DNA of 64,000 nt, taken from Daphnia pulex (taxonomy: Eukaryota > Arthropoda > Branchiopoda > Diplostraca > Daphniidae). The DNA lies in NCBI RefSeq assembly GCF_021134715.1, contig NC_060022.1, positions 2,051,001 through 2,115,000 of the forward strand, in the 5' to 3' direction. The position numbers were made by a program, and so were the translations under genes. Shown here in pieces: positions 15,608 to 40,760 of the stretch (its first letter is position 1; every line of letters begins with the position of its first letter). The notes under the pieces were generated by a model that was not told where the DNA came from, did no database searches, and worked only from the letters and a program-made list of their open reading frames with translations.

Positions 15608-17009
15608 TCAAAAGCGTATTGGTCTACATTGGTTTGTAGCTGGGATGAATTGGAAGGAAGGTCCGCAGCTAGCTGGCCCACGGTTGCTACCGCATTGTCC
15701 AGTAGCTTGCAAGAAATCATTTGGTCGGCAACCGAAAGCAGGACTGACAGGCTGACTAACGTCGCGGACGGGTCTCCTAGGACTGTAAGAGAAATTATTA
15801 CAGAAATTATCAAGTGCCCTTAAATGTTTGCTAAATTGCATCTAAATAACTTACACCAAAGGATTTGCACACTTGAAGTTATTTCCGTTTCGACCGCCAG
15901 GTTGACAGGGATTTAGGAGAGATGTTGGAATTCTACTTGGCTGTTGGAATATCCCAATAGTATTGGGTCCTTGTCTTCGTTTTCTTGATAAACGTTGTGC
16001 ACGATAAAACCTATTATTGGGTTCGTTTGCGGCTCGACCAAAGACATCATCTAAAATTGCGTTCTCTTCCGGAGAAGAAAAGTATGGCGTTCTAGGGTCA
16101 TTCATATCAACACACTCTCCCAGCGGGCGAAAGACGTTGTAACCGAAAAGTTCAGAAGGTGAGCAAGGTCCACAGCTGCCCAACGCATGGCACAGTTCCT
16201 GTCCATTTCCATTACCGTATTTATGATTACTTATAATTGATTGTTTAACTGGGACCAATTGCAGGAGGAAGTCCTGATATCTATCAACTAGTTGACAAGT
16301 GTTGGGGGCACACTCTAATTTACCCGATGCACTAACGGATACAACCTGATTGGTTGGACACGGTCCTTAAAAAAATCATAAAAAGAAATTAATTAACAAA
16401 TAATTTGGGAAAATTGGCGTTTACTGTACCTTGGGTAAATAAAGGAACGCAATCGTCATCCTCTGATGGGAATGGATATTGCCCAATAGGACAATCACAA
16501 ATTGGATCTCCGTAAGCCGAGTAATATAGACGCCTACCTCCGCGACACTCTTTAGTGTCTAAAATATCGTGACAAAGACCATCTCGGCCGACGAACACTT
16601 TTTCTCTGCCACAAAGGCGAGGAGTGCATATTCCCTAAAAGTTTGACAAAAAAACAGGTTGGATAAAATACAAGAACAGCATTAATTCTAAAAAGAATTA
16701 AAATCCCACCTCGTAAGTATACGGGTCGACCGTTATCCAAAGCAACACACTATAGCAAGGACCTTTCTTCAGAAGTGGATAACAGTATCCATCGCCCTTA
16801 AATCGGACTGAGGAGTCACCACACCCATCATCAGCAAAAGAAGCATTAGATGGTTTCTTATTTTGTGGAACTGGAGCAGCAGCATTGAACGGACGATAAC
16901 TTCCATAAGATTTGTCGGTCGTACTGGAGATATAACTAGGATAGGTTGGCGCGTTGTTTGCCAATACCAGTGCGACAGCAGTCGCAAATATTATTGCTGA
17001 AAACAACAT
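15608..17009 (-). CDS. DUF4789-like secreted Cys-rich protein, copy A
   Basis: Four exons join in frame: 17009-16710, 16634-16430, 16365-15855 and 15782-15608, giving 396 residues. The start is the ATG at 17009, which opens a signal peptide (LFSAIIFATAVALVLA). A frame running further upstream begins only with TTG. The mature part has paired cysteines and phrases such as GYCYPLLKKGPC, CDCPIGQYPFP and CVPLFTQGPCP, typical of the arthropod DUF4789 family as I know it; its biochemical role is unknown. A dibasic RKRR at residues 296-299 fits a furin site between two Cys-rich parts. Copy A is a type 1 gene, but exon 2 has private changes (HDILDTKE, PIGQYP) absent from B-E. Secreted structural or binding protein is inferred. 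Confidence 0.85.
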
Positions 17010-20240: not shown

Positions 20241-23200
20241 TCAAAAGCGTATTGGTCTACATTGGTTTGTAGCTGGGATGAATTGGAAGGAAGGTCCGCA
20301 GCTAGCTGGCCCACGGTTGCTACCGCATTGTCCAGTAGCTTGCAAGAAATCATTTGGTCGGCAACCGAAAGCAGGACTGACAGGCTGACTAACGTCGCGG
20401 ACGGGTCTCCTAGGACTGTAAGAGAAATTATTACAGAAATTATCAAGTGCCCTTAAATGTTTGCTAAATTGCATCTAAATAACTTACACCAAAGGATTTG
20501 CACACTTGAAGTTATTTCCGTTTCGACCGCCAGGTTGACAGGGATTTAGGAGAGATGTTGGAATTCTACTTGGCTGTTGGAATATCCCAATAGTATTGGG
20601 TCCTTGTCTTCGTTTTCTTGATAAACGTTGTGCACGATAAAACCTATTATTGGGTTCGTTTGCGGCTCGACCAAAGACATCATCTAAAATTGCGTTCTCT
20701 TCCGGAGAAGAAAAGTATGGCGTTCTAGGGTCATTCATATCAACACACTCTCCCAGCGGGCGAAAGACGTTGTAACCGAAAAGTTCAGAAGGTGAGCAAG
20801 GTCCACAGCTGCCCAACGCATGGCACAGTTCCTGTCCATTTCCATTACCGTATTTATGATTACTTATAATTGATTGTTTAACTGGGACCAATTGCAGGAG
20901 GAAGTCCTGATATCTATCAACTAGTTGACAAGTGTTGGGGGCACACTCTAATTTACCCGATGCACTAACGGATACAACCTGATTGGTTGGACACGGCCCT
21001 TAAAAAAATCATCAAAAGAAATTAATTGGTAAATTACCCGAGGGATCGTTCTACGATCCTGAAGGGTAATTGAAATTGTATAAGAAATAAATGTAGACGA
21101 CGACCCTAAGGGTGTAGACCTACATTTATTCAGCTTTTTAAAGAACAAAAAGAGGGGGGTGTGCTGCCCTTTCCTCTTACCTGCACACGCCCTTTGCCAT
21201 TCAGACTTATAGCTACAGATCCGTGTACAGGGTTTTAACCAAACACAATTACATGTTATCAAACATAATCAGAGAGAATTTCACACATAACTTCCAAATA
21301 ACAGTTTGAGGGGGATACGAGAAAAAACCTGAGGACTTCAGGGTAAAAAAACTCTATCCCAAGGTAACATATCATGAAACACAGAAACATGAACATAATG
21401 GTTGCAGCAAAAAATAGTGCGCTTCTTCTTCTGGACAGCTCTGCCAACTGCCGTAACTTGAACACGTAATGGGGCCTTCTTACTTTCTCGCCAGTCTAGT
21501 TATTCTTGCTTCTAGAATAACCTCCAGCTTTCCGGCCACGAAAGGTTTGATTTCTACGCGTTTTTTCCAAAATTGAATGAATCATAATTAAATAAATGAT
21601 GACACAGGGTGGGTATGGGTGGGAGACAGACCCTTAGGGTCGTCGTCTACATTTATTTCTTATACAATTTCAATTACCCTTCAGGATCGTAGAACGATCC
21701 CTCGGGTAATTTACCAATTGTACTGCGAAATGCATTTCGCCTAGACCCTAAGGGTGATTTTAAAGCCCAATGATGAATTTTTAATTTTGAACAAACATCG
21801 TTTGTGTCGACGCTCGATTGTAAAATCGATTGAACGTCGTTTCTTTTGACCAACTTCCGGCTCGCAAGATTGCCTCCACCGGTACGCCGTCACTGACCGC
21901 TTTCGAAGCGGCCGCTCCTCTTGTGGAATGCGCCCCAAAACACCGAGTGTTTATGCCGGCCTTTTGCAAGAACGATTTAATCCAGCGACTCACTGTACTG
22001 GCTGAGACCGGCCTATGGGGCGCGATGAGTGCAACAAATAGTTTTCCTTCGTCTGTCTCGCGTCTAAACTGATTCGTACGTTCCACAAATTCTTTAAGCG
22101 CCAAGACTGGACATAAAATCGGATCCGGATCATTTAATATTGAAAAGGACTGCAGCGGACCGTTCCGCTGTGCTTTCCGTAACCTATCTAATGAGAATAC
22201 TACCCCTCTTTCTGAGAAGACGACGGATCGGTAACCAATTGCCGCTATCTCCGACGCTCGCATTAAGGTAGCTAACGCTATCATGGTGACCAATTTACTA
22301 GCTAAGACGCTCAGGGTAAGGTGTCGGTTTTCGCCCAACGAATTAATAAATTCTACAACTTGACTCGGGTCCCACATGTCGTTGTACTTGGGCTTGGGGG
22401 GATTCTTGTGATAGCAGCCTTTCATTAATCGGACGACAAGCGGATGCGCGCCTATCTGAACGCCTTCGATGGACCCCAGGGTCCTGGACAACATAGACCG
22501 GTGAATGTTGATTGCGCTATACGACTTGCCCGAGGCCAGCAAGTCGGTGAGGAACTGCAAAACCTCGGTTAAATCCGCCGACAAGGGATCCGTATCCCTT
22601 CGCACACACCAATGTGTCCAGTTCCGCCATGCGGAATCGTAAGTTGCGAGGGTGGTCGGTCGATTTCCGGCCACAAGAAGGTCGACCACGTTCGACGAAA
22701 AGCCTCTGTCACGCAACTGTCGCCGGACAGTCTCCAAACGGCCAAGTGAAGTGCGCTGGATGCTAATAACGGGTGCGGCTCGTTCAGTGCCGATGTCAGG
22801 AGGTCCGGCTCCTGCTGAAGAAGAAATACTACGTCGCACGCTAGCTCGAGTAGCACCGGGAACCAGGCCTGACCTGTCCATACGGGGCAAACGAAAACTA
22901 CGTCAGCTTTCTCTCTTCTAATTTTTTCCAAACATTGAAAAATTAGCGCAAAAGGGGGAAAAAGATACCCCGAAAGGCCCTTCCAGTTAACTGAAAAGGC
23001 ATTTGTGTTCAACGCTTGCGGTTGCGGCCGCCACGAAAAGAAAGAGGGGAGCTGCGCGTTCCAATGGGACGCAAAAAGGTCAACTTTTGATGGCCAGATC
23101 TTTTGAACGCGAGAAAAAACGGATGGATTTAATTTCCAATCGCTTGCATCCGGTCCGGCGCGAGACTCTTCGTCAGCAATTACATTCAGCTTGCCGCTCA

Positions 23201-26200
23201 AATGAACCGCTTCGATTGCAATATTCCGGCTCTCACACCAAGCTGTCAGAGTGGTTGATAATTGCGTCAACGCTTTGGACCTGGTACCCCCGCCGTGATT
23301 AATATAAGCCACTGCCGTGACGTTGTCTAAATAAATTTTTATCGCTATACTTTCCGATACCGCCGCGAATGATTGAATCGCGTATAACGCGCCTAACATC
23401 TCTAGTTCATTAATGTGCCTCTTGGTATCTTCCAAAGTCCATGAGCCCCTCGTCCTCACATTATTACAATACGCTCCCCAGCCTGTTAGAGAAGCGTCGG
23501 AGAAAATCTCCAGATCTGGCACGCTAGGAAAGAACAACTTTTCCCTTTTTAAGCCTAGATTGTTGGACCACCATTCTAAGTCGTCCCTGGTTTCCGCCGA
23601 TAGCACGCATTCCGACTTCAAATTAAATCCCACTTTTCTAGCTTGCTTAATATAGAATGCCTGCATCCTCCTGAAATGAGACTGCGCAAAAGGTATCGTA
23701 GGTATGGCCCAAGTAAAGTTGCCCATTATCGACGCAATCTCTCGCAATGAAATTCTGCTCCTGGCAAGGGCCGCATCGCATTTGGCCTTAACGGTTGCAG
23801 CCTTGTCCGACGGCAGCGAAAAGGAAAGTTTTACCGAATTAATAACCAAGCCCAGATACTCTATTACTTGCGACGGTTCTACAATTGACTTCTCCCAATT
23901 GATCAAGAAACCCAGATTTTGTAATAATTCAACCACTTTATTTACATCGGCTTTGGTGCTATCTTTTGATGTATTAACTATTAATATATCATCCAGATAC
24001 ACGATGAGACGCATGCCCTGCCTTCTCAGAAAAGCCGCCACTACTTTTAGAATTTTCGTAAAATACCGCGGGGCCGGAGCTAAACCAAAAGCCAGACAAG
24101 TAAATTGAAAAATACGCCCCTTCCAGGTGAAACGCAAATATTTCTGGTGGGAGGGGTGCACAGGGACCGTAAGATAAGCATCTTTTAAATCCAACTTTGC
24201 TAGCCAGTCCCCTTCTCTCAAAATGAAGCGTGCGGAATCAAGATTTTCCATCTTAAAGTGTTCATACCGGATGAATACATTAAGTGGTTTAAGATTTACA
24301 ATCGGGCGAAAACCGCCCGATTTTTTTGGAATAACAAATAGAGAACAGACAAACCCATCCTCCCCGCTATTCGAAATTTCTACAATGGCTTTCTTCTCAA
24401 GTAAATCTTTTACTTCCTGGTCGCAAACGCTTGCCATCTCTTTCGACATTGTTATCGGACGCGGAAGTTTAGTTTGATTCGGGGTTTCTACAAAATCTAG
24501 CTTAACCCCGTTTGACACGCTGTCTAGGACCCAACGATCGTCCGTAACAGTCTCCCACATTTTAGCAAAATGTAAAATACGCCCGCCCACATTTTCACAC
24601 ACAACAGTATTGCGTAAAATTTGAATGGGATCAGAAGGAGGGACGAAAACATACCTTTCACCTCCTCGAGTCCAAGCAGTTGCACCCGGCGGTCGTCCTC
24701 TTCCGACCCCACCACTCTGCCTCCCTTCAACGGGAAATTGGGCCGCTGCTTCTCTCCTTGGGCGCAACACCCGTTGAGATGGGCCTGGGTTCACTGCTAC
24801 CTTTCTTCCACCTGCCTTAGCCCTCGCTCGAGCCGCCGATGAGCTTGCCAGTGTGGCGTCTTGAGACGCCTCCTTGAGCATCGTCTCTAAGAATTTGTCC
24901 GTGAAAAGGAGCTCAGTTGCCTCCTTTCCCGGTGCGAAAGCGTCAGGGTTTGACAATATGAAGTCATATGTCGGTTCCACCAATGTCACAACCGCTCGCC
25001 TTCTTCTTTGGGTGATGTGGTAGTACGCTCTACCCCACTGTTGTAAAACGGCCCGCACCGTATTCTTGGCTTGCGTCACCGTTTCTCCCTCTCCAAGAGC
25101 ACACACTTTAGCGTATAAATCAAACAGAGGTGGGGCAACGTCCATTATTTTAAGCTGAGTCTGTATAAGCGCTTCCTCCGAAGCATTAACCCCTTTCAAT
25201 CGATCTTTGTCTTTAGCATGCCTCAACATAAAGCCGTCGAGCTTAGGCGGTTTAATCGAGAAAGTCGGGTCCTCAAACTCGAGCTCAAATTTCTTTGAGA
25301 TTGCTTTTGAATCGTCGGTTGACAGGCCAGTCGTTAGCCAAACCCTAATCTCGTCTGAAATCGCTGTTGGGATGAACGCCGTCACTTCCCCTGATTCACT
25401 GGCTGCTTTGGATGAGCCTGCCGTGGCTGCCGCGGCTGCCGCGCGCGTTGGTTTTAGAGCCTTCCCTTTCGACTTAGATCCGGCGGCAGGGGCTTGGGGA
25501 GTACGCTCCTTTGGTAGCCATGGACGGTCCACTAGCTTTGGACCCCCCTCGTCTAACTCTTCTTCCTCTTCGTCCTCTACTTCAAGATACTCGCCATCTT
25601 CTTCGTCTTCCTCCTGTCTGCTCTCCCGCTTCTCTCTTTCTTCCAAGTCTCTTAGCTTGCTAAAACGAACGTAGGCTTCTTCTTCGATCCTATCATCTAA
25701 CGGAAACTCGGCGCCATTCCCCCGTTCCTTCGCACGCCCCCTTGGTCGATCCCCCACATCATTTTGATAAAACCGGTCTCCGTGAAAAAACTGATCACGC
25801 GGAGGAACGTCAAAAGCCGGTGGTGGAATCACGGGTGGAATATTAAACAATGGCGGTTGAGCGTCAAAGGAGGGAGCCCACTCTCGATAGTTTCGAAGAG
25901 GAGACCTTTCTCTATCTGGATAATCAAAGTGAACAAAACGGTCGCGTGGCTGACCATTCCAATCACGAGAACGATTTGCCCAATCTCTAGCTTCTTGTTC
26001 AGTACGAAAACCTACGGCCCGTGGGTCCATTCTCTGGTGCCTATGCCAACCATAAAAATCACTAGGGCCTGCCATTCTGAAATTCTGACTGCACTGTACG
26101 CGAGCTGAAATAAGTCTGAATGGCAAAGGGCGTGTGCAGGTAAGAGGAAAGGGCAGCACACCCCCCTCTTTTTGTTCTTTAAAAAGCTGAATAAATGTAG

Positions 26201-26855
26201 GTCTACACCCTTAGGGTCTAGGCGAAATGCATTTCGCAGTACAATTAACAAATAATTTGGGAAAATTGGCGTTTACTGTACCTTGGGTAAATAAAGGAAC
26301 GCAATCGTCATCCTCTGATGGGAATGGATATTGCCCAACAGGACAATCACAAATTGGATCTCCGTAAGCCGAGTAATAAAGACGCCTACCTCCTCGGCAC
26401 TCTTTAGTATCGTAAATATCGTGACAAAGACCATCTCGACCGACGAACACTTTTTCTCTACCACAAAGGCGAGGAGTACATATTCCCTAAAAGTTTTGCA
26501 CAAAAAATATTGGATAAAATAAAAGAACATTATTAATTATTTTAAAAAATCCCACCTCATAAGTATACGGGTCGACCGTTATCCAAAGCAACACACTATA
26601 GCAAGGACCTTTCTTCAGAAGTGGATAACAGTATCCATCGCCCTTAAATCGGACTGAGGAGTCACCACACCCATCATCAGCAAAAGAAGCATTAGATGGT
26701 TTCTTATTTTGTGGAACTGGAGCAGCAGCATTGAACGGACGATAACTTCCATAAGATTTGTCGGTCGTACTGGAGATATAACTAGGATAGGTTGGCGCGT
26801 TGTTTGCCAATACCAGTGCGACAGCAGTCGCAAATATTATTGCTGAAAACAACAT
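20241..26855 (-). CDS. DUF4789-like secreted protein, copy B, split by DIRS
   Basis: Exons are 26855-26556, 26486-26282, 20998-20488 and 20415-20241, giving 396 residues of type 1. Exons 1, 3 and 4 match copies A and D, and exon 2 carries the HDIYDTKE and PVGQYP form. All frames and splice sites are intact. However, intron 2 holds a 5,215-bp DIRS retrotransposon in the same orientation, enlarging it from about 65 bp to more than 5.2 kb. In a genome of very short introns this could impair splicing, so this copy may be expressed poorly or truncated after exon 2. Coding capacity alone does not prove it functional. Confidence 0.75.
21103..21210 (+). repeat. DIRS left inverted terminal repeat
   Basis: This 108-bp segment starts ACCCTAAGGGTGTAGACCTA. 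It is the reverse complement of 26110-26217 with essentially no differences seen by eye. The outermost 75 bases (21028-21102), beyond it, are not inverted at the other end. They contain a GGATCGT/ACGATCC hairpin and the near-palindrome GGTAAATTACC at the tip. Confidence 0.88.
21631..21755. repeat. DIRS internal complementary region
   Basis: Positions 21631-21715 are the reverse complement of the left outer end, then AATT (21716-21719), then the reverse complement of the right outer end (21720-21755). It thus records a head-to-tail joint of the two ends, as expected of the template used to finish a circular DIRS intermediate. Confidence 0.9.
21781..22890 (-). CDS. DIRS tyrosine recombinase
   Basis: A 369-residue ORF carries the phage-integrase catalytic set: Arg211 (LMRASE), His321 and Arg324 (HSTRG), Trp347 (GSWS) and Tyr357 (FNRFY). 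The N-terminal SAM-like core-binding part spans roughly residues 75-160. In DIRS elements this enzyme integrates a circular double-stranded DNA copy, replacing a DDE integrase or endonuclease. The ORF overlaps the reverse transcriptase ORF by 322 bases in another frame, so it needs its own initiation, a frameshift or a spliced transcript. All expected catalytic residues are present, suggesting recent activity. Confidence 0.9.
   Translation of the reverse strand: MPRMDRSGLVPGATRASVRRSISSSAGAGPPDIGTERAAPVISIQRTSLGRLETVRRQLRDRGFSSNVVDLLVAGNRPTTLATYDSAWRNWTHWCVRRDTDPLSADLTEVLQFLTDLLASGKSYSAINIHRSMLSRTLGSIEGVQIGAHPLVVRLMKGCYHKNPPKPKYNDMWDPSQVVEFINSLGENRHLTLSVLASKLVTMIALATLMRASEIAAIGYRSVVFSERGVVFSLDRLRKAQRNGPLQSFSILNDPDPILCPVLALKEFVERTNQFRRETDEGKLFVALIAPHRPVSASTVSRWIKSFLQKAGINTRCFGAHSTRGAAASKAVSDGVPVEAILRAGSWSKETTFNRFYNRASTQTMFVQN
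22569..26159 (-). CDS. DIRS Gag-like / reverse transcriptase / RNase H polyprotein
   Basis: A single 1,196-residue frame. Translation more likely starts at the ATG at 26075 (MAGPSDF), because the ORF before it lies in the terminal repeat. The first 480 or so residues are Gag-like: Arg/Asp/Pro-rich, with a Glu/Asp-rich block, then a helical segment. The reverse transcriptase follows; its YLDD catalytic box is at residues 721-724. An RNase H domain has IFSDAS and DNVTAVAYIN, followed by the DLFAS segment typical of DIRS/Ngaro proteins. Gag and Pol appear fused without a stop. I did not see a clear separate methyltransferase domain, though the C-terminal 150 residues are unassigned. Confidence 0.88.
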   Translation of the reverse strand: MLPFPLTCTRPLPFRLISARVQCSQNFRMAGPSDFYGWHRHQRMDPRAVGFRTEQEARDWANRSRDWNGQPRDRFVHFDYPDRERSPLRNYREWAPSFDAQPPLFNIPPVIPPPAFDVPPRDQFFHGDRFYQNDVGDRPRGRAKERGNGAEFPLDDRIEEEAYVRFSKLRDLEEREKRESRQEEDEEDGEYLEVEDEEEEELDEGGPKLVDRPWLPKERTPQAPAAGSKSKGKALKPTRAAAAAATAGSSKAASESGEVTAFIPTAISDEIRVWLTTGLSTDDSKAISKKFELEFEDPTFSIKPPKLDGFMLRHAKDKDRLKGVNASEEALIQTQLKIMDVAPPLFDLYAKVCALGEGETVTQAKNTVRAVLQQWGRAYYHITQRRRRAVVTLVEPTYDFILSNPDAFAPGKEATELLFTDKFLETMLKEASQDATLASSSAARARAKAGGRKVAVNPGPSQRVLRPRREAAAQFPVEGRQSGGVGRGRPPGATAWTRGGERYVFVPPSDPIQILRNTVVCENVGGRILHFAKMWETVTDDRWVLDSVSNGVKLDFVETPNQTKLPRPITMSKEMASVCDQEVKDLLEKKAIVEISNSGEDGFVCSLFVIPKKSGGFRPIVNLKPLNVFIRYEHFKMENLDSARFILREGDWLAKLDLKDAYLTVPVHPSHQKYLRFTWKGRIFQFTCLAFGLAPAPRYFTKILKVVAAFLRRQGMRLIVYLDDILIVNTSKDSTKADVNKVVELLQNLGFLINWEKSIVEPSQVIEYLGLVINSVKLSFSLPSDKAATVKAKCDAALARSRISLREIASIMGNFTWAIPTIPFAQSHFRRMQAFYIKQARKVGFNLKSECVLSAETRDDLEWWSNNLGLKREKLFFPSVPDLEIFSDASLTGWGAYCNNVRTRGSWTLEDTKRHINELEMLGALYAIQSFAAVSESIAIKIYLDNVTAVAYINHGGGTRSKALTQLSTTLTAWCESRNIAIEAVHLSGKLNVIADEESRAGPDASDWKLNPSVFSRVQKIWPSKVDLFASHWNAQLPSFFSWRPQPQALNTNAFSVNWKGLSGYLFPPFALIFQCLEKIRREKADVVFVCPVWTGQAWFPVLLELACDVVFLLQQEPDLLTSALNEPHPLLASSALHLAVWRLSGDSCVTEAFRRTWSTFLWPEIDRPPSQLTIPHGGTGHIGVCEGIRIPCRRI
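26110..26217 (-). repeat. DIRS right inverted terminal repeat
   Basis: Reverse complement of 21103-21210. The outer end beyond it (26218-26242) contains the 16-bp perfect palindrome GCGAAATGCATTTCGC (26222-26237) followed by AGTAC at the element tip. The repeat overlaps the 5' end of the long ORF. Confidence 0.88.
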
Positions 26856-30086: not shown

Positions 30087-31494
30087 TCAAAAGCGTATTG
30101 GTCTACATTGGTTTGTAGCTGGGATGAATTGGTAGGAAGGTCCGCAGCTAGCTGGCCCACGGTTGCCACCGCATTGTCCAGTAGCTTGCAAGAAATCATT
30201 TGGTCGGCAACCGAAAGCAGGACTGACAGGCTGACTAACGTCGCGGACGGGTCTACTAGGACTGTAAGAGAAATTATTACAGAAATTATCAAGTGCCCTT
30301 AGTTGTTTGCTAATTTGCATCTAAATAACTTACACCAAAGGATTTGCACACTTGAAATTATTTCCGTTTCGACCGCCAGTTTGGCAGGGATTTAGGAGAG
30401 ATGTTGGAATTCTACTTGGCTGTTGGAATATCCCAAAAGTATTGGGTCCTTGTCTTCGTTTTCTTGATAAACGTTGTGCACGAAAAAACGTATTACTTTT
30501 GTTATTCTTTGTTTTTATGGGTTCGTTTGCGGCCCGATCAAAGACATCATCTAAAATTGCGTTCTCTTCCGGAGAAGAAAAGTATGGCGTTCTAGGGTCA
30601 TCCATGTCAACACACTCTCCCTGAGAGCTAAAGATGTTGTAACCAAAAAGTTCAGAAGGTGAGCAAGGTCCTCGAGTGCCTAACGCATAGCAGTATCCAT
30701 ATTCATCGTCTTCGTCATCGTTACTTATTCTTGATTGTTTAACCGGGACCAATTGCAGGAGGAAGTCCTGATATCTATCAACTAGTTGACAAGTGTTGGG
30801 GGCACACTCTAATTTACCCGATGCACTAACGGATACAACCTGATTGGTTGGACACGGCCCTTAAAAAAATCATCAAAAGAAATTAATTAACAAATAATTT
30901 GGGAAAATTGGCGTTTACTGTACCTTGGGTAAATAAAGGAACGCAATCGTCATCCTCTGATGGGAATGGATATTGCCCAACAGGACAATCACAAATTGGA
31001 TCTCCGTAAGCCGAGTAATAAAGACGCCTACCTCCTCGGCACTCTTTAGTATCGTAAATATCGTGACAAAGACCATCTCGACCGACGAACACTTTTTCTC
31101 TACCACAAAGGCGAGGAGTACATATTCCCTAAAAGTTTTGCACAAAAAATATTGGATAAAATAAAAGAACATTATTAATTATTTTAAAAAATCCCACCTC
31201 ATAAGTATACGGGTCGACCGTAATCCAAAACAACACATTCTCGCAAGGGCCTTTCTTCAGAAGAGGATAACAGTATCCATCGCCTTTAAATCGGACAGAA
31301 TAGTCTCCACAGCCATCATCAGGATAAGAAGAATTAGATGGTTTCCCATTTTGTGGAACTTTTGCACCATTAAACGGAGGATAACTCTCATAAGAATTGC
31401 CGGCCGTACTGGAGACATCACTAGGATAGGTTGGCGCGTTGTTTGCCAATACCAGTGCGACAGCAGTCGCAAATATTATTGCTGAAAACAACAT
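30087..31494 (-). CDS. DUF4789-like secreted protein, copy C
   Basis: Exons 31494-31198, 31128-30924, 30859-30334 and 30261-30087 give 400 residues. This is type 2: exon 1 reads SDVSSTAGNSYESYPPFNG, and exon 3 has a five-residue net insertion with an acidic DDEDDEYGY and an IKTKNNKSN segment before the furin-like RKRR. Compared with type 1, CHALGSCG becomes CYALGTRG, losing one cysteine. The signal peptide (MLFSAIIF) and the upstream sequence are those of type 1 genes, so the copy seems to be a recombinant: a type 2 body behind a type 1 promoter. Frames and splice sites are intact. Confidence 0.85.
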
Positions 31495-34725: not shown

Positions 34726-36121
34726 TCAAAAGCGTATTGGTCTACATTGGTTTGTAGCTGGGATGAATTGGAAGGAAGGTCCGCAGCTAGCTGGCCCACG
34801 GTTGCTACCGCATTGTCCAGTAGCTTGCAAGAAATCATTTGGTCGGCAACCGAAAGCAGGACTGACAGGCTGACTAACGTCGCGGACGGGTCTCCTAGGA
34901 CTGTAAGAGAAATTATTACAGAAATTATCAAGTGCCCTTAAATGTTTGCTAAATTGCATCTAAATAACTTACACCAAAGGATTTGCACACTTGAAGTTAT
35001 TTCCGTTTCGACCGCCAGGTTGACAGGGATTTAGGAGAGATGTTGGAATTCTACTTGGCTGTTGGAATATCCCAATAGTATTGGGTCCTTGTCTTCGTTT
35101 TCTTGATAAACGTTGTGCACGATAAAACCTATTATTGGGTTCGTTTGCGGCTCGACCAAAGACATCATCTAAAATTGCGTTCTCTTCCGGAGAAGAAAAG
35201 TATGGCGTTCTAGGGTCATTCATATCAACACACTCTCCCAGCGGGCGAAAGACGTTGTAACCGAAAAGTTCAGAAGGTGAGCAAGGTCCACAGCTGCCCA
35301 ACGCATGGCACAGTTCCTGTCCATTTCCATTACCGTATTTATGATTACTTATAATTGATTGTTTAACTGGGACCAATTGCAGGAGGAAGTCCTGATATCT
35401 ATCAACTAGTTGACAAGTGTTGGGGGCACACTCTAATTTACCCGATGCACTAACGGATACAACCTGATTGGTTGGACACGGCCCTTAAAAAAATCATCAA
35501 AAGAAATTAATTAACAAATAATTTGGGAAAATTGGCGTTTACTGTACCTTGGGTAAATAAAGGAACGCAATCGTCATCCTCTGATGGGAATGGATATTGC
35601 CCAACAGGACAATCACAAATTGGATCTCCGTAAGCCGAGTAATAAAGACGCCTACCTCCTCGGCACTCTTTAGTATCGTAAATATCGTGACAAAGACCAT
35701 CTCGACCGACGAACACTTTTTCTCTACCACAAAGGCGAGGAGTACATATTCCCTAAAAGTTTTGCACAAAAAATATTGGATAAAATAAAAGAACATTATT
35801 AATTATTTTAAAAAATCCCACCTCATAAGTATACGGGTCGACCGTTATCCAAAGCAACACACTATAGCAAGGACCTTTCTTCAGAAGTGGATAACAGTAT
35901 CCATCGCCCTTAAATCGGACTGAGGAGTCACCACACCCATCATCAGCAAAAGAAGCATTAGATGGTTTCTTATTTTGTGGAACTGGAGCAGCAGCATTGA
36001 ACGGACGATAACTTCCATAAGATTTGTCGGTCGTACTGGAGATATAACTAGGATAGGTTGGCGCGTTGTTTGCCAATACCAGTGCGACAGCAGTCGCAAA
36101 TATTATTGCTGAAAACAACAT
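34726..36121 (-). CDS. DUF4789-like secreted protein, copy D
   Basis: Exons 36121-35822, 35752-35548, 35483-34973 and 34900-34726 give 396 residues. The protein equals copy B in every exon, but intron 2 is the short, empty form with a single AATT (35509-35512). Copy D is therefore the uninterrupted counterpart of B. It is also the best candidate for the functional type 1 gene. Domains are as in copy A: signal peptide, Cys-rich parts and RKRR. Confidence 0.85.
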
Positions 36122-39352: not shown

Positions 39353-40760
39353 TCAAAAGCGTATTGGTCTACATTGGTTTGTAGCTGGGATGAATTGGTA
39401 GGAAGGTCCGCAGCTAGCTGGCCCACGGTTGCCACCGCATTGTCCAGTAGCTTGCAAGAAATCATTTGGTCGGCAACCGAAAGCAGGACTGACAGGCTGA
39501 CTAACGTCGCGGACGGGTCTACTAGGACTGTAAGAGAAATTATTACAGAAATTATCAAGTGCCCTTAGTTGTTTGCTAATTTGCATCTAAATAACTTACA
39601 CCAAAGGATTTGCACACTTGAAATTATTTCCGTTTCGACCGCCAGTTTGGCAGGGATTTAGGAGAGATGTTGGAATTCTACTTGGCTGTTGGAATATCCC
39701 AAAAGTATTGGGTCCTTGTCTTCGTTTTCTTGATAAACGTTGTGCACGAAAAAACGTATTACTTTTGTTATTCTTTGTTTTTATGGGTTCGTTTGCGGCC
39801 CGATCAAAGACATCATCTAAAATTGCGTTCTCTTCCGGAGAAGAAAAGTATGGCGTTCTAGGGTCATCCATGTCAACACACTCTCCCTGAGAGCTAAAGA
39901 TGTTGTAACCAAAAAGTTCAGAAGGTGAGCAAGGTCCTCGAGTGCCTAACGCATAGCAGTATCCATATTCATCGTCTTCGTCATCGTTACTTATTCTTGA
40001 TTGTTTAACCGGGACCAATTGCAGGAGGAAGTCCTGATATCTATCAACTAGTTGACAAGTGTTGGGGGCACACTCTAATTTACCCGATGCACTAACGGAT
40101 ACAACCTGATTGGTTGGACACGGCCCTTAAAAAAATCATCAAAAGAAATTAATTAACAAATAATTTGGGAAAATTGGCGTTTACTGTACCTTGGGTAAAT
40201 AAAGGAACGCAATCGTCATCCTCTGATGGGAATGGATATTGCCCAACAGGACAATCACAAATTGGATCTCCGTAAGCCGAGTAATAAAGACGCCTACCTC
40301 CTCGGCACTCTTTAGTATCGTAAATATCGTGACAAAGACCATCTCGACCGACGAACACTTTTTCTCTACCACAAAGGCGAGGAGTACATATTCCCTAAAA
40401 GTTTTGCACAAAAAATATTGGATAAAATAAAAGAACATTATTAATTATTTTAAAAAATCCCACCTCATAAGTATACGGGTCGACCGTAATCCAAAACAAC
40501 ACATTCTCGCAAGGGCCTTTCTTCAGAAGAGGATAACAGTATCCATCGCCTTTAAATCGGACAGAATAGTCTCCACAGCCATCATCAGGATAAGAAGAAT
40601 TAGATGGTTTCCCATTTTGTGGAACTTTTGCACCATTAAACGGAGGATAACTCTCATAAGAATTGCCGGCCGTACTGGAGACATCACTAGGATAGGTTGG
40701 AGCGTTGTTTGCCGATACCAGTGCGACAGCAGTCGCAAATATTATTGCTGAAGCCAACAT
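39353..40760 (-). CDS. DUF4789-like secreted protein, copy E
   Basis: Exons 40760-40464, 40394-40190, 40125-39600 and 39527-39353 give 400 residues of type 2, matching copy C except at the 5' end. The signal peptide here reads MLASAIIFATAVALVSA, and upstream DNA differs clearly from the other copies. An upstream frame extending to 40814 lacks an ATG, so the start is at 40760. As the rightmost unit it probably keeps the original type 2 promoter, which copy C lost. Frames and splice sites are intact. Confidence 0.85.

Follow-up and report, generated by a model that had tools for sequence, protein, structure and literature searches.

How does the DNA copy of a tyrosine recombinase retrotransposon enter a chromosome, and at which base does the chromosome give way to the element? 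The integration of DIRS elements is an unsettled matter, and for the passage of cDNA into the chromosome there has until now been a model without junction evidence. The question is raised by an element in a 64,000-nt window of the Daphnia pulex genome (NC_060022.1, positions 2,051,001 to 2,115,000), where the window is the whole stretch of DNA that was analysed and features lie on its forward strand unless stated otherwise. A preliminary description had proposed that a circle with one AATT between its ends recombined with a genomic AATT in the style of a phage att site, and that palindromes beside this core could be the arms bound by the recombinase.

The element is a DIRS1-like retrotransposon (21027..26245, limits set by a break after AAT) with its genes on the minus strand. 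It has a tyrosine recombinase ORF of 369 aa (21781..22890, minus strand; Phage_integrase, 6.5e-12), a long ORF with a reverse transcriptase (22569..26159, minus strand; RVT_1, 7.7e-23 in the piece 23502-24701, above the cut-off), a left inverted terminal repeat of 109 bp (21102..21210) that is 100% identical to its right partner (26110..26218) and an internal complementary region (ICR) of joined ends. Empty sites show no target-site duplication, and identity between circle and target is needed at about three bases only. The terminal repeats are inverted, rather than the split direct repeats of PAT/Ngaro elements. In the ORF pieces searched, no Pfam model for RNase H or methyltransferase passed its cut-off, and an Rfam search of the window gave no matches. 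Recombinase residues R215, K243, H325, R328 and Y361, which form the R, K, HxxR, Y set, are invariant in a seven-sequence alignment. By sequence, Cre is the closest recombinase of solved structure, at weak similarity (E 0.0016), and it recombines double-stranded DNA.

This anatomy, the AAT junction and the absence of duplication are already known for DIRS1-like elements. DpuDIRS3, from the same species, shares the reverse transcriptase, the tyrosine recombinase, the inverted terminal repeats, the joined-end ICR, the ATT/ATT ends, the AAT junction and the lack of a target-site duplication, and its sizes (divergent ITR 24, rE 50, ICR 38-89) fit the anatomy of the window element (PMC3266345, Table 3). 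The idea that the left extension is unusual for animals was discarded on the same table, which gives matching sizes for DpuDIRS3 under different labels. What we add to that description is a hairpin over the joint, a single breakpoint and a free fourth base. Daphnia pulex has 19 intact DIRS elements in 16 families, two of which show signs of activity, according to PMC2996953.

The ICR occupies 21630..21756, with its core AATT at 21716-21719, and its minus strand, which is the gene sense, is the better folder. Positions 21630-21719 are the exact reverse complement of 21024-21113 (the left end including AATT), and positions 21716-21756 are the reverse complement of 26206-26246 (the right end including AATT). 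Because both end copies overlap on the AATT at 21716-21719, the ICR consists of right end, AATT and left end, and the earlier identification of joined ends is borne out by these matches; the 48-nt match between right end and ICR (I3) is only 94% identical because it runs on beyond the element. A motif near CTTTAAARTCAC lies just ahead of the ICR in gene sense, between the ICR and the recombinase stop (window 21745-21757, minus strand). A loose pattern places such a motif in 20 of the 21 families compared here, the 21st (L029) having CTTGAAAATCAC, and also in L055, a locus where no ICR turned up.

The window copy sits within a tandemly repeated gene stretch (16267-40308; repeats of ~4.6 kb with apparent small cysteine-rich protein genes), inside one repeat and apparently in non-coding sequence. 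Four neighbouring repeats are empty and paralogous to the occupied one, each with the single AATT that had been described (cores at 16391..16394, 30885..30888, 35509..35512 and 40151..40154). A genome search found ten full copies of this family, ~100% identical by score, and the seven others compared have no mismatches to the window copy across 5221-5223 bp; seven identical 5.2-kb copies point to what is probably a very recent burst. A 2.77-kb non-autonomous relative (L064:100-2866, at C12:545199), with about 29 other near-identical copies, keeps the termini, ICR and hairpin and has a 263-aa Gag-like ORF; the list of ORFs of at least 100 aa in one of its copies holds no reverse transcriptase or recombinase.

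We located the breakpoint by taking the junction flanks of 40 copies from two families, ten from the window family and 30 from the abundant 2.77-kb relative. Two of the latter's 30 right junctions lie off the expected place (C9:1531999 and C1:234814) and were not counted, leaving 38 readable. An AATT on both sides, as described earlier, is present at the window copy but is not a general rule: the left tetramer is AATT in 36 of 40 copies and ATTT in the other four, while the right tetramer is AATT in 26 of 38, AATC in five, AATG in six and AATA in one. Across these copies, left variants are confined to base 2 and right variants to base 4. Base 4 differs from T at 12 of 38 right junctions versus none of 40 left junctions (p 6e-5), and base 2 is T at four of 40 left junctions versus none of 38 right junctions, where it is always A (p 0.12, which on its own falls short of significance). 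The insertion at C6:4138783 combines both kinds of mismatch, ATTT on the left with AATC on the right, a pair that neither strand of a simple heteroduplex gives. A genome-wide count of exact patterns, covering the abundant family and its autonomous relative, found 13 right ends with a base 4 other than T; on the left there were none, against 58 (29 ends and 29 ICRs) that have T. The same sides vary in other families (ACTT on the left in L031 and L053, AATC on the right in L037 and L042); the left-flank AATT is missing in L029/L030, which are old copies with a shared flank, and L063 has CATT at its left flank and GATT in its own ICR. The core variants are not later mutations, because the seven other window-family copies compared are free of mismatches.

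Insertions break, without heteroduplex-like mixing, at a single sharp point that lies between bases 2 and 4 and for which AAT^N is the best reading. In the left AATT (21024..21027), bases 1-2, and probably 1-3, belong to the target and base 4 to the element, as judged from the junction variants in the 40 copies. In the right AATT (26243..26246), bases 1-3 belong to the element and base 4 to the target, as judged from the junction variants together with the paralogous empty sites. As an annotation rule for DIRS boundaries, an element runs from the base after AAT through AAT.

The cuts of tyrosine recombinases are usually staggered by 6-8 bp, the stretch that is exchanged, and mismatches there can end at either junction. 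A one-point boundary is therefore a poor fit to an exchanged overlap of 6-8 bp, and any overlap is at most 1-2 nt; the base-4 and base-2 variant counts do not show the mismatches reaching either junction that an overlap of several bp would give. We accordingly consider it improbable that a double-stranded AATT circle and a genomic AATT recombined by two staggered exchanges, with the dyads as recombinase arms. In a published DIRS model, a circle recombines through a short stretch of identical sequence, with a 3-bp circular junction (PMC3266345), and the conserved catalytic residues and the inverted half-sites beside the core in several distant families also speak for such a reaction. A single breakpoint without mixing argues against an overlap of at least 4 bp, however, as do the free base 4 and the opposite mismatches at the two junctions of C6:4138783. 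AATT as an exchanged 4-bp core is rejected, since base 4 is free and base 2 may differ. The preliminary description had named insertions with unrelated flanking tetramers as its refutation, and these were seen in part: flanks other than AATT do occur (AATC, AATG, AATA and ATTT), but AAT or A.T remains in each. The part of the preliminary description that stands, and that is also in the published DIRS model, is that the ends join at a short core matching genomic sequence, with no target-site duplication.

Empty sites confirm which side keeps the base of the target. We used the joined flanks of 27 insertions to find paralogous empty sites (at least 42 matches), scored 40 of 258 candidates and inspected 20 empty sites, covering ten insertions. 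The AATC or AATG of the right junction recurs in the empty sites of three insertions (C3:2169777, five of five paralogues; C9:180743, one of one; C6:23890, one of one), and the empty sites of the remaining seven have AATT throughout. Because the variant base is already there in the empty sites, the right junction retains base 4 of the target and the left one has the element's T. At C7:11398, the base immediately ahead of the core is T in the left flank of the insertion but A in the three paralogues, a difference for which paralogue divergence is probably the simple reason. For the other copies of the window family, the empty-site search turned up a single paralogue (87%), of the C5 site, in which AATT is present with indels beside it.

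In the abundant family, the target is preferred over a few more bases. Base 0, immediately ahead of AAT, is a pyrimidine in 28 of 30 insertions (background 0.45, p 4e-8), the next base out is A in 20 of those 28 (background 0.29, p 4e-6) and T occupies base 4 in 17 of 28 (background 0.36, p 0.009), the last being a mild preference. The resulting target, A[CT]AAT^N, matches the element's own ACAAT before the break. The window family is without the pyrimidine rule at base 0 (A in five, T in four and G in one).

DIRS relatives outside this genome were absent from the viral contigs and prokaryote genome contigs, and generality beyond this genome therefore rests on a published table (PMC3266345). 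Table 3 of that paper lists 28 DIRS1-like elements from many phyla, and start and end trinucleotides differ in ten of them. Among the eight of these ten with a three-letter junction, seven match the junction in their first trinucleotide and depart from it in the last, six of them at the middle letter, while AcasDIRS1 is the one reversed case. This is the polarity found in the Daphnia junctions, and is thus an independent sign of it; the mismatch pattern in seven of eight informative elements of other phyla suggests that a one-point break is general among DIRS elements.

We then compared the structure around the joint between families. An ICR was sought at 36 loci (the window, L029-L043, L045-L063 and L064) and was absent at six (L033, L034, L038, L040, L041 and L055). 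Eight loci were dropped as near-copies of counted families (L030, L039, L043, L046, L047, L049, L051 and L058) and L035 was left out because the hairpin is deleted from its ICR, so that 21 families remain. The window junction folds with -30.6 kcal/mol (z -6.5 against 200 dinucleotide shuffles), and the minimum free energies of the joined ends of the 21 families lie below those of dinucleotide shuffles (median z -6.5, with z < -3 in 20 of 21).

The predicted fold of the gene-sense ICR is a nested hairpin of three tiers, with inner, outer and base stems. At the left end of the window element, the nested hairpin (21032..21071) has an outer stem AATTACCC/GGGTAATT (21032-21039/21064-21071) and an inner stem GGGATCGT/ACGATCCT (21042-21049/21053-21060). 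The base stem forms after end joining, when the right end's GTAC (26239..26242) and the core AATT pair with AATTGTAT (21074..21081), about 50 nt inside the other end. Because the base stem includes AATT, the joint is double-stranded within the folded single strand; a core so placed, here in a predicted fold, is also what marks the attC and CTXphi sites. All four core bases are predicted to be paired in 20 of 21 families, the exception being L032, which pairs two. The inner stem of L056 is down to two pairs, the folds of L029 and L050 are irregular and L063 has its core in the middle tier.

The pairing is kept in spite of quite different stems, such as GGAAGCGC-AAA-GCGCTTCC in L048. When right arms were swapped between families, the base stem kept 2.7 pairs of 5 versus 4.0 with its own arm, and a swap of partners lowered pairing from 0.85 to 0.53 in the inner stem and from 0.85 to 0.37 in the outer stem (p 5e-5 each, which is the floor of 20,000 permutations and, with relatedness ignored, overstates independence). 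The parse of the inner and outer stems was automated and misread L029, L050, L056, L061, L063 and L064, which the totals include; the base-stem register was chosen with G-T scored above A-C, and L053 and L063 are in the wrong register. The stems covary between families, and the fold is conserved. Among the hairpins of L025-L063, internal loops are unequal in many cases (2 nt versus 3 nt between inner and outer stems, for example); they recall, by analogy, the extrahelical bases that choose the strand in attC.

The fold favours one strand. Under RNA and DNA parameters alike, the strand reading right end, core and left end outfolds its complement in 20 of 21 families (sign test 2e-5, which ignores relatedness and so overstates independence). 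The base stem has 22 G-T pairs versus two A-C pairs, with 11 of the 22 G-T pairs at base 4 of the core, and across all stems the count is 51 versus 19 when the six misparsed families are included. Such a bias should not be expected of double-stranded binding sites. The favoured strand is that of the genomic RNA at the ICR and also that of the minus-strand cDNA at the joined ends, and RNA and cDNA are indistinguishable by sequence as the folded molecule.

These results change the meaning of the arms. The hairpin GGATCGT/ACGATCC and the palindromes GGTAAATTACC and GCGAAATGCATTTCGC are present as described, and the dyads are real and conserved, but they are tiers of one hairpin that contains the core and not two separate binding sites. 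GGTAAATTACC is not kept in most related families and is incidental; a role as a binding arm is rejected for it. GCGAAATGCATTTCGC (26222..26237, repeated at 21725-21740) has equivalents of the CGAAA..TTTCG type in nine of 21 families, the window's subgroup, which differ, by eye, through changes on both sides; it is absent from the others. The best support for the arm idea comes from distant families such as L060 and L061, where inverted half-sites seen by eye lie across the core (CGAGCGATTTAC and GTAAATTGCTCG in L060) and look like ordinary double-stranded recombinase sites. It is very improbable, in our judgement, that the dyads are double-stranded sites bound by additional recombinase subunits, by accessory proteins or by host proteins, with folding as a by-product: the outer-stem sequence GAGCAATT does recur, by eye, as a half-site next to the core in distant families, but the excess of G-T over A-C pairs in the base stem is unexpected for double-stranded sites, and from family to family the stem sequences diverge widely while the pairing and the small loops are retained.

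A different possibility is that the hairpin acts in RNA, where the ICR of the genomic RNA would guide reverse transcription or the template switching that rebuilds the missing ends, with integration as a separate recombinase step. The better folding of the gene-sense ICR in 20 of 21 families and the favoured G-T pairs fit this proposal, in the RNA the ICR closely follows the stop codon of the recombinase, and a published model takes the ICR as the template (PMC5633606). We nevertheless regard it as rather unlikely, because it leaves unexplained both the position of the breakpoint inside the base stem and the sharp one-point junctions, and because a very stable hairpin in the template would impede copying through the joint.

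The reading we prefer, to which we give an even chance, is that the joint of a folded single-stranded cDNA exchanges one strand with a genomic AAT through the tyrosine recombinase. The minus-strand single-stranded cDNA, running from right end through core to left end, would fold at its joint, whether it is circular or is linear with its ends held together by the base stem. The base stem would then offer AAT^T as double-stranded DNA, and the recombinase would exchange one strand only, after AAT, with a chromosomal A[CT]AAT^N or similar. The genomic AAT would have to match only on the 5' side of the break, as a half-site, and the host would complete the joint by replication or repair. One-point junctions are consistent with the exchange of a single strand, and single-stranded DIRS cDNA, reportedly described in 2020, would fit the proposed mechanism. 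We infer three of its parts, namely the folding of DNA and not RNA, the exchange of a single strand and the identity of the strand that is cut. Several points weigh against it: selection at the RNA level on the same ICR strand would give the same sequences, G-U pairs and covariation, the nearest solved recombinase is Cre, and the half-sites across the core in distant families look like an ordinary double-stranded site.

The closest precedents are bacterial. In integrons, the attC site is a folded single strand on which a tyrosine recombinase exchanges one strand with a double-stranded partner, followed by replicative resolution (PMC4792948). If the inference is right, the window element would work in the same way, but it is not itself a member of this group and differs in that its recombinase belongs to the general phage integrase family, that it is a eukaryotic retroelement and that its folded site is built from the two ends of the element. 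In CTXphi, a forked hairpin in the single-stranded phage DNA makes attP, and one pair of strands is exchanged (PMC3089051). Whereas CTXphi borrows the host's XerC/XerD and has the fixed target dif, the window element encodes its own recombinase and its target is only AAT or A[CT]AAT. IS200/IS605 elements have hairpins near the ends of their single-stranded DNA and insert just 3' of a short target, which remains at one flank. They differ from the window element in their HUH transposase, in place of a tyrosine recombinase, and in having no retrotransposition.

The integron paper treats the integron and CTXphi as the only two similar reactions (PMC4792948). A literature search, mostly without subscription papers, turned up no account of either a hairpin over the joint or a one-strand mechanism in DIRS. 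We tentatively propose, at somewhat less than an even chance, that DIRS integration is a eukaryotic recombination of the attC/CTXphi type, in which a conserved hairpin of the joined ends of single-stranded cDNA undergoes one-strand exchange at AAT^N with a half-site target. With the breakpoint mapped to one position and a conserved structure around the joint, the mechanism of integration becomes directly testable. If true, the single-strand reading would make DIRS elements the counterpart, among eukaryotic retroelements, of the integron and CTXphi systems.
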